From Candidatus Gastranaerophilales bacterium (lineage in GTDB: Bacteria > Cyanobacteriota > Vampirovibrionia > Gastranaerophilales > Gastranaerophilaceae): a DNA stretch of 64,000 nt. The translations under genes and the position numbers were made by a program. The DNA is taken from positions 1 through 64,000 of the forward strand of contig CALVBB010000009.1 in NCBI GenBank assembly GCA_944325705.1. The letters run 5' to 3'. A model generated the notes under the pieces. It had not been told where the DNA came from. It saw only the letters and a program-made list of their open reading frames with translations, and searched no databases. Each line of letters starts with the position of its first letter. Position 1 is the stretch's first letter. Positions 22,646-24,094 of this stretch are shown piece by piece.

Positions 22646-22679
22646 AAAAGACCTTTCGAGCTTCGGGAGGTCTTTTTTA
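22646..22679 (+). terminator. pgk terminator
   Basis: AAAAGACCT pairs with AGGTCTTTT, and T-rich sequence follows. Confidence 0.85.
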
Positions 22680-22728: not shown

Positions 22729-22757
22729 TTGACAAAATTTTTTGTTACTTTTATAGT
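22729..22757 (+). promoter_or_regulatory. Promoter of the attenuated transcript
   Basis: TTGACA (22729-22734), a 17-nt spacer and TATAGT (22752-22757). The predicted transcription start coincides with the A of the leader-peptide ATG at 22764. Confidence 0.75.
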
Positions 22758-22763
22758 AAACTT

Positions 22764-22811
22764 ATGAGAAATAATTTATCAAACTTGAATAGAAACTGGT
22801 GGCGCCTGTAG
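22764..22811 (+). CDS. Leader peptide with tandem Trp codons (15 aa)
   Basis: The short frame encodes MRNNLSNLNRNWWRL and stops with TAG. Adjacent TGG TGG codons (22797-22802) lie immediately before the first arm of a four-segment hairpin set. This is the layout of classical trp leader peptides, where a ribosome stalled for lack of charged tRNA-Trp covers segment 1. No Shine-Dalgarno is present; the promoter predicts a leaderless message. The regulated gene is a membrane protein of unknown function, not a trp biosynthetic gene. Confidence 0.7.
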   Translation: MRNNLSNLNRNWWRL

Positions 22812-22880
22812 AGAGTACAGGTGTATAACGCATAAAATTTTTATGAAAGACCTGTACTATAAATTGTGTACAGGTTTTTT
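22805..22880 (+). promoter_or_regulatory. Four-segment transcription attenuator
   Basis: Segment 1, CCTGTA (22805-22810), overlaps the end of the leader peptide. Segment 2, AGTACAGGT (22814-22822), pairs with either segment 1 (6 bp) or segment 3, ACCTGTACT (22850-22858, 9 bp). Segment 3 pairs with segment 4, GTACAGGT (22868-22875), to make a terminator followed by six T. Stalling at Trp-Trp would free segment 2 to form the 2:3 antiterminator. Confidence 0.8.
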
Positions 22881-22906
22881 AGTTTTTAGAAAGGTTTAAA
22901 AATTTT

Positions 22907-24094
22907 ATGCAGGTCAATTTAATAAATACATTATCCAATCCCCTCAAAATTGCGGCACGTTTTGTAAATTCGCAGGAACAGGCATCAGGTCTTTCGACTT
23001 CAAGGTTTATTCAGGATACAGGAACATGTCTTGTTCCGAAGGCAACTTTTGCAAGGAGCAAGGCTGATTTAGCGGAAAATGCTGTTCTTGAGCTTTCTGA
23101 GAGTGCTCTTGTTTATTTTGCTCCGGCTCTAATCGGTGAAAAGATTGCCAGAAAAGCGTTTTCTAAAAATCTTAACAGGGCTGAAAAAGAGATGGTTTCT
23201 ATGAGTGCAAAAGATTTGATGCAGATGAAAAATCCTGCTGCCAAGAAGGTTCTGCCGGTAAAAGCTGCAATTGCTCTCACTGCAATGCTTATCCCTTTAA
23301 CAGAATTTACCCTGAATTATTTTAAAAATCTTTTTACTCTGAAGGTCTTTAAAAAAGGTGATTTTAATACGATTGCCGCACTTGACAAATCGCCGGAAGA
23401 TAAAGCAAAACAGAAAAAAGTAGAAAAAAGCGCTTACAAAAACATAAAACGTGCGGGCGCGTTTTTTGCCGGCTGCCTCGGGCTGGGAGCTTTGATTGCA
23501 AAAAGAGGGCAGAATTCAAAATTTCTTCAAAATTTGTCGGAACTTATTCTTGCTCCGGGTTCAAAGCTTTTAGGAAAAAATGAAAAAGCCGAAAATTTCT
23601 TCAATAAGTACGCAAGCATTGACTTTGCGTCCCAGAATGGCAAACTCGTTTTAAGCAAAGGGCAGCTTACCTCCTGTGTTTTTGTCGGCGGGGCAGGTTA
23701 TTTCGGCGCCTCAAAAGACAGAGGAAAACAAAACTTTCTGGAAACACTTTTCAGATACCCGATTGTCGGTTTTTATATAATAACAGGCAGTGAACTTTTT
23801 GAAAAAGGGTTCAAAAAACTGCTTCAAAAAACAGGAAAATGCAAAGAAACTATTGACAAAAACCTCAACACTCCAACGTTTGACAGGCTGGAAGAAATTG
23901 CAAAAAATCTCGCGAAAAAGAACGGTACAAAGGTTGAAACAGAGTTTAAAAAGCTTGCAAAACAAAAAGTTTTGATTTCGGGTGTTCCGTATCTTTTCAG
24001 TATCGGAGTTATGGGATTTTTCGTTGCAGGGATTTCAAACCTGTTTACAAAGTACCGCTACCAACGGGATTCTCGGCCCAGTAAAGCCGTATAA
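22907..24094 (+). CDS. Tryptophan-free membrane protein under attenuator control
   Basis: A 395-residue basic protein with several hydrophobic segments (about 65-80, 120-140, 183-200, 248-262, 285-300 and 368-385) and Lys-rich loops. I count no tryptophan. The N-terminus MQVNLINTLSNP fits the M-x-V-N start shared by other unknowns in the window. It is the first gene after a Trp-Trp leader peptide and terminator/antiterminator, so it should be made when charged tRNA-Trp is scarce; its lack of Trp fits that. The weak AGAAAGG is 12 nt from the ATG. The 3' end overlaps the convergent next gene by 50 nt. It shares general character with the membrane protein at 29314, but homology is unproven. Confidence 0.7.
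   Translation: MQVNLINTLSNPLKIAARFVNSQEQASGLSTSRFIQDTGTCLVPKATFARSKADLAENAVLELSESALVYFAPALIGEKIARKAFSKNLNRAEKEMVSMSAKDLMQMKNPAAKKVLPVKAAIALTAMLIPLTEFTLNYFKNLFTLKVFKKGDFNTIAALDKSPEDKAKQKKVEKSAYKNIKRAGAFFAGCLGLGALIAKRGQNSKFLQNLSELILAPGSKLLGKNEKAENFFNKYASIDFASQNGKLVLSKGQLTSCVFVGGAGYFGASKDRGKQNFLETLFRYPIVGFYIITGSELFEKGFKKLLQKTGKCKETIDKNLNTPTFDRLEEIAKNLAKKNGTKVETEFKKLAKQKVLISGVPYLFSIGVMGFFVAGISNLFTKYRYQRDSRPSKAV

Follow-up and report, generated by a model that had tools for sequence, protein, structure and literature searches.

The 64,000-nucleotide stretch of DNA analysed here (the window), from a Candidatus Gastranaerophilales genome, contains what is very probably a transcription attenuator of the ribosome-mediated kind, which responds to charged tRNA-Trp and governs one stand-alone gene with a Trp-free product. 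The best reading of the sequences, and a well-supported one, is that this gene belongs to a set of paralogues, probably membrane-embedded, each of which would be induced when ribosomes stall for want of one amino acid and contains little or none of that amino acid. The main new point is that one protein family appears to combine attenuators and compositions that are matched by amino acid. The evidence read directly from the genomes consists of the anatomy of the leader, its conservation, the compensatory changes in its helices, its linkage to the gene and the reciprocal depletion of two amino acids in two clades of the family. The features of the locus are listed below.

22646 to 22676, forward strand: terminator of the upstream pgk gene, separating the attenuator unit from pgk
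22729 to 22757, forward strand: strong sigma-70-type promoter, TTGACA-17-TATAGT, with 11 of 12 consensus matches
22764 to 22811, forward strand: leader peptide ORF, MRNNLSNLNRNWWRL followed by a stop codon, without a Shine-Dalgarno sequence; WW leaders occur in 81 family members
22797 to 22802, forward strand: two adjacent Trp codons (TGG TGG), proposed to act as the sensor, from the sequence and from relatives
22803 to 22810, forward strand: segment 1, CGCCUGUA, pairs with segment 2 (-10.3 kcal/mol, covariation)
22815 to 22823, forward strand: segment 2, GUACAGGUG, pairs with segment 1 or segment 3 (covariation of 2:3)
22849 to 22857, forward strand: segment 3, GACCUGUAC, pairs with segment 2 (antiterminator) or segment 4 (terminator), from pairing and covariation
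22868 to 22880, forward strand: segment 4, GUACAGGU, and six-U run, forming an intrinsic terminator with segment 3 (covariation); segment 4 is 22868 to 22875 and the six T are 22875 to 22880
22889 to 22894, forward strand: likely Shine-Dalgarno sequence GAAAGG of the structural gene, from the sequence
22907 to 24094, forward strand: 395-aa Trp-free protein with hydrophobic stretches, a member of the Trp-regulated clade of an order-confined family

The next gene downstream of the 22907 to 24094 ORF is convergent, so the attenuator would control one gene only. The earlier note on this DNA had described a 15-residue leader peptide with Trp-Trp overlapping segment 1, the three pairings 1:2, 2:3 and 3:4 with six T after the last, and a 395-residue product free of Trp. 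All of these were located: the leader reads as given above, the stem energies are -10.3 (1:2), -11.9 (2:3) and -11.9 kcal/mol (3:4), and the product was counted to have 0 Trp. Folding of the leader, which had been proposed as a check, gave a structure that beats 200 of 200 dinucleotide shuffles (z = -4.65). The locus has the general traits of an attenuator, namely a leader ORF with a codon run, mutually exclusive pairings that are compensated in relatives, and an intrinsic terminator before the gene.

The two TGG codons end immediately 5' of segment 1, and the stop codon of the leader lies at the end of segment 1. In the classical arrangement, the footprint of a ribosome stalled on the TGG codons covers segment 1 and that of a ribosome at the stop codon covers segment 2. 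When Trp is plentiful, the ribosome would pass both TGG codons, reach the stop at the end of segment 1 and cover segment 2; the 3:4 terminator would then form and transcription would end short of the gene. Under Trp scarcity the ribosome would stall at the TGG codons and cover segment 1, segments 2 and 3 would pair, the terminator would be blocked and the gene would be transcribed. A Trp-free product could therefore be made during the very shortage that induces its gene. The direction of this response, stalling as its signal and the benefit under starvation are what we infer. After removal of segment 1 the thermodynamic optimum remains 3:4, and antitermination would for that reason have to be kinetic. 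In the window, 6 nt separate the -10 hexamer from the leader ATG, and the identical spacing is found in 23 of the 28 leaders without a Shine-Dalgarno sequence in the short-leader Trp subclade (window included). This spacing, together with the lack of a Shine-Dalgarno sequence, implies that the RNA should begin at or beside the leader ATG; the leader ORF of the window therefore probably has a leaderless start, conserved in its subclade.

Orthologues of the 395-aa protein are found in 32 of 59 relatives. At orthologues in three families of the order Gastranaerophilales, the WW leader is found again, as are the two alternative pairings and a product free of Trp. The WW leader is present in 27 of the 29 correctly oriented upstream regions, which were collected by protein homology; the other two are a single W (G020) and a member of the Met clade described below (G041). 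The Trp codons stay constant while the flanking peptide varies (RNWWRL, QSWWHL, NNWWSL, NWWWSL), and among 173 genes of ten genomes only this gene has a small ORF with WW within 400 bases upstream. Covariation of the helices was measured on an alignment of 18 sequences from relatives. Helices 1:2 and 3:4 are paired in 93.7%, and 7 of their 15 pairs show double-sided changes. Their covariation score is 0.319; the shuffles score 0.206, with none of the 500 reaching the real value, and slid versions score no more than 0.137. The antiterminator 2:3 is paired in 89.6%; 5 of its 8 pairs show double-sided changes, and its covariation score lies above all 500 shuffles and every slid version. Loss of the WW codons or of the alternative pairings in close relatives had been named in the earlier note as what would speak against an attenuator; both are conserved.

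A covariance model of the element (R1; strong match, E <= 1e-4) gave one strong match per genome in 25 of the 59 relatives, all just upstream of this gene, and in 63 of 286 genomes of the order, again one per genome. The matches adjoin a family member in 61 of 61 checkable cases (G217 and G287 fall outside that check); some of the matched sequences had trained R1, and unrelated Trp attenuators elsewhere could escape such a model. Matches at E 0.002-0.003 (L101, L102, L103) were rejected on inspection of their sequences, which have no W-leaders, and a second WW-CTGT match in the window's own genome (L066) is coding sequence. The protein family itself is found in 76 of 292 genomes of a sample of the phylum, all of them within the order.

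Paralogues at 39-51% identity have Met-rich leaders in place of WW, e.g. MRKNNTMMMQMMMCGLNKGGHCCANRMC followed by a stop codon (MMMQMMM... type). The tree of the 139 distinct members collected splits in two. The Trp clade (83 members) has 81 WW and 2 single-W leaders; the Met clade (56) has 54 Met-run leaders, one degenerate leader (L217) and one that is rich in Ile and Leu (L125). Met-run leaders stand upstream of the paralogues at L119-L127, L139, L149, L150 and others. Under a loose rule, a small ORF with a Met run occurs by chance before 8 of the 173 background genes, vs 54 of 56 in the Met clade. In 27 Met-type sequences, 3:4 is paired in 98.4% with 32 double-sided cells and 2:3 in 82.9% with 18, and both covariation scores exceed every shuffle. 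The Met-run leaders would follow an equivalent logic of 2:3 versus 3:4, before products poor in Met. At L149 (G095:C33) two Met leaders stand in tandem before one gene, each with a terminator-like hairpin. Of 54 Met-type leaders, 47 keep the motif CGAATGT in the interval from segment 2 to segment 3, and 0 of 81 Trp-type leaders have it; the motif persists in L125 in a different reading frame and may therefore act as RNA and not as peptide. Two distant homologues of ~350 aa (L128, G041:C4; L129, G030:C40) have no codon-run leader and form a third branch of the family. No described example of Met-codon attenuation was found in the open-access literature searched, which is not proof of absence; a survey of Actinobacteria likewise reported none among RNA elements for Met operons, where it detected no such element at all (PMC1262725).

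The compositions of the two clades were compared with a baseline of 158 proteins from ten genomes. Trp makes up 0.60% of the baseline, 0.02% of the Trp clade and 0.65% of the Met clade; 77 of the 83 Trp-clade members have no Trp and the remaining six have one. Met (start residue excluded) makes up 2.34%, 1.37% and 0.70%, respectively. The leader type follows one split of the tree, and the depletion of each amino acid therefore counts as one evolutionary event, so that significance values which treat clade members as independent, the Mann-Whitney value of this comparison included, are too strong. The reciprocal depletion of Met in the Met clade supports, from an independent direction, the logic of a product made without the scarce amino acid. 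Cys in the Met clade is also low (0.44% vs 1.22% in the baseline), which would be consistent with economy in the two sulfur amino acids.

It is unlikely that the attenuator is real and the absence of Trp incidental, an ancestral or structural feature of the clade instead of the outcome of selection under starvation. For a single protein of such length, having no Trp is not unusual (P about 0.09; among the 53 baseline proteins with 350-550 aa, 8, or about 15%, have none), and the absence of Trp is significant only across the family and not in one protein. The Trp clade is moreover one side of a single split, and its composition is unusual beyond Trp, with both Met and His below the baseline. 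Against this, the Met clade keeps Trp at three sites that are replaced in the Trp clade: at sites ~42, ~281 and ~380, Trp is found in 54, 38 and 51 of 54 Met-clade members, and most members of the Trp clade have Leu, Leu and Phe there, respectively. Five early-branching members of the Trp clade retain Trp at site ~42, and its loss at this site was therefore probably a later event. An incidental origin would also need a second coincidence for the reciprocal depletion of Met. L125 (G023:C33) points the same way: it has the Ile/Leu-rich leader MITSLNIAIISLIIISLLDSKRLLYCECEI (followed by a stop codon), and its product is not depleted of Met, with 17 Met in 528 residues vs 2-7 in Met-led members. 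It is as if L125 had lost the Met depletion along with the Met leader; L125 is the only such case and sits on a long branch.

Control that is translational or exerted by Rho, at least in part of the clade, in place of intrinsic termination is quite improbable. It is favoured by one lineage (G017, L116 and L117; upstream regions L036, L116 and L117) in which WW and segments 1-3 are kept and the U-run after 3:4 is poor, and the mode of control may differ in that subclade. However, a clean stem followed by a U-run is found in the window and in most relatives, and segment 4 of the window does not cover the Shine-Dalgarno sequence of the structural gene.

Arrest leaders of the TnaC type have a single Trp and then, at a distance, a Pro codon beside the stop; the leader of the window ends in NWWRL before its stop, with tandem Trp and no Pro. 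Short leaders of stress genes often sense drugs (PMC10314930, MsrD) and TnaC detects Trp as a free ligand (PMC8429421), but sensing of a ribosome-binding drug or of free Trp by nascent-chain arrest (erm, msrD or TnaC style) is very unlikely here, as the Trp codons are kept while the surrounding peptide changes, the sister clade has Met runs where WW stands, and the codon run is that of the amino acid missing from the product.

Transcription attenuation by charged tRNA-Trp would, in this organism, have a target other than Trp biosynthesis. The earlier note had already placed the attenuator before a gene that is not a trp gene, and this agrees with the analysis: the downstream gene has no known family, trpB (at the curated cut-off) is absent from the genome of the window and from all 13 genus members examined, and the trp loci of nine relatives have no such leader. 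Since the genus of the window is without trpB, the attenuator would not be a biosynthetic one. In the 16- to 18-kb regions around trpB of nine relatives, which include an apparent full trp operon in G046, no WW leader was found. A tie between the Trp copy of the family and Trp auxotrophy was rejected: trpB is present in 24 of the 59 relatives, and the copy occurs both with and without it, with no simple rule. In four relatives (L107-L110, in G045, G040, G020 and G017) trpB lacks an adjacent trpA and is followed by an ORF of ~412 aa (e.g. MEINKKVKFEYIQQAEILARGTDIIPGGVM...); this recurrent trpB without trpA is perhaps a sign of indole salvage.

Compared with known systems, the closest in form is the attenuator of the trp operon, trpL (Escherichia coli; Corynebacterium and Streptomyces, PMC1262725), which likewise combines a short leader ORF containing tandem UGG with pairings 1:2, 2:3 and 3:4 that exclude one another and with an intrinsic terminator bearing a U-run. 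Unlike trpL, the leader of the window stands before a protein without known family, and not before trp genes or trpS, in a genus without trpB. It also scores below the Rfam threshold for Trp_leader (RF00513; 15 bits vs a gathering threshold of 41), the best-scoring other Rfam family being RF04312 trpB (22 vs 59), and in its short form it apparently starts without a Shine-Dalgarno sequence. The poly-cysteine leaders of mycobacteria are likewise short leaderless ORFs in which codons for a single amino acid form a run, and the speed of their translation sets downstream expression (Canestrari et al. 2020, cited in PMC9031893). Unlike those, the present leaders are in another phylum and concern other amino acids, have an intrinsic terminator with alternative pairing, and have as target one stand-alone gene whose product lacks the sensed amino acid. 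In Chlamydia trachomatis, a host-associated bacterium, Trp codons are likewise reported to act as a starvation sensor, with YtgR (PMC7755916) as a regulator protein acting on trpRBA, whereas here a cis-acting leader with alternative hairpins is predicted. As for composition, biosynthetic enzymes avoid their own amino acid (cognate bias), Trp being among the strongest cases (PMC4209129; Alves and Savageau 2005), and the same survey found no such bias for Met enzymes (median 0.1, P = 0.2; PMC4209129). The likeness lies in a protein needed in starvation that avoids the scarce amino acid; unlike those enzymes, this family has no known biosynthetic role, and its paralogues avoid different amino acids, matched to their leaders.

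The 395-aa product falls in no Pfam, NCBIfam or PHROGs family, and sequence searches for function in Pfam, NCBIfam, PHROGs, PADLOC and PDB gave chance-level matches only. An AlphaFold2 model from five close sequences has a mean pLDDT of 48, too poor for a fold search. Conserved gene neighbours were not found either: at 31 loci, the 61 neighbouring genes belong to 51 families. As there is no library match and the neighbours are not conserved, we assert regulation and not a biochemical function. The product had been called a membrane protein in the earlier note; by hydropathy, on which the assignment is based, four hydrophobic stretches are suggested, and a membrane protein is therefore likely. 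The proposed response to Trp starvation fared similarly, its regulatory logic being upheld by the conserved WW codons and pairings and the 77 of 83 Trp-free members, while a role in uptake over some other stress role was not.

To our knowledge, nearly all amino-acid attenuators belong to genes of biosynthesis, transport or tRNA synthetases. In the present case the device would drive proteins without an evident tie to biosynthesis, and often does so in lineages without trpB. We lean towards a related set of membrane proteins, each induced by starvation for its own amino acid (Trp or Met, perhaps Ile/Leu) and purged of the same, with a Met-codon attenuator among them. The two clades together amount to a natural experiment, one family with a different sensed amino acid and a matching depletion, and selection against a scarce amino acid in starvation proteins would therefore be directly testable outside biosynthesis. 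For this large unnamed family, confined to one order of mostly gut bacteria, the predicted induction signal would be the first functional handle.
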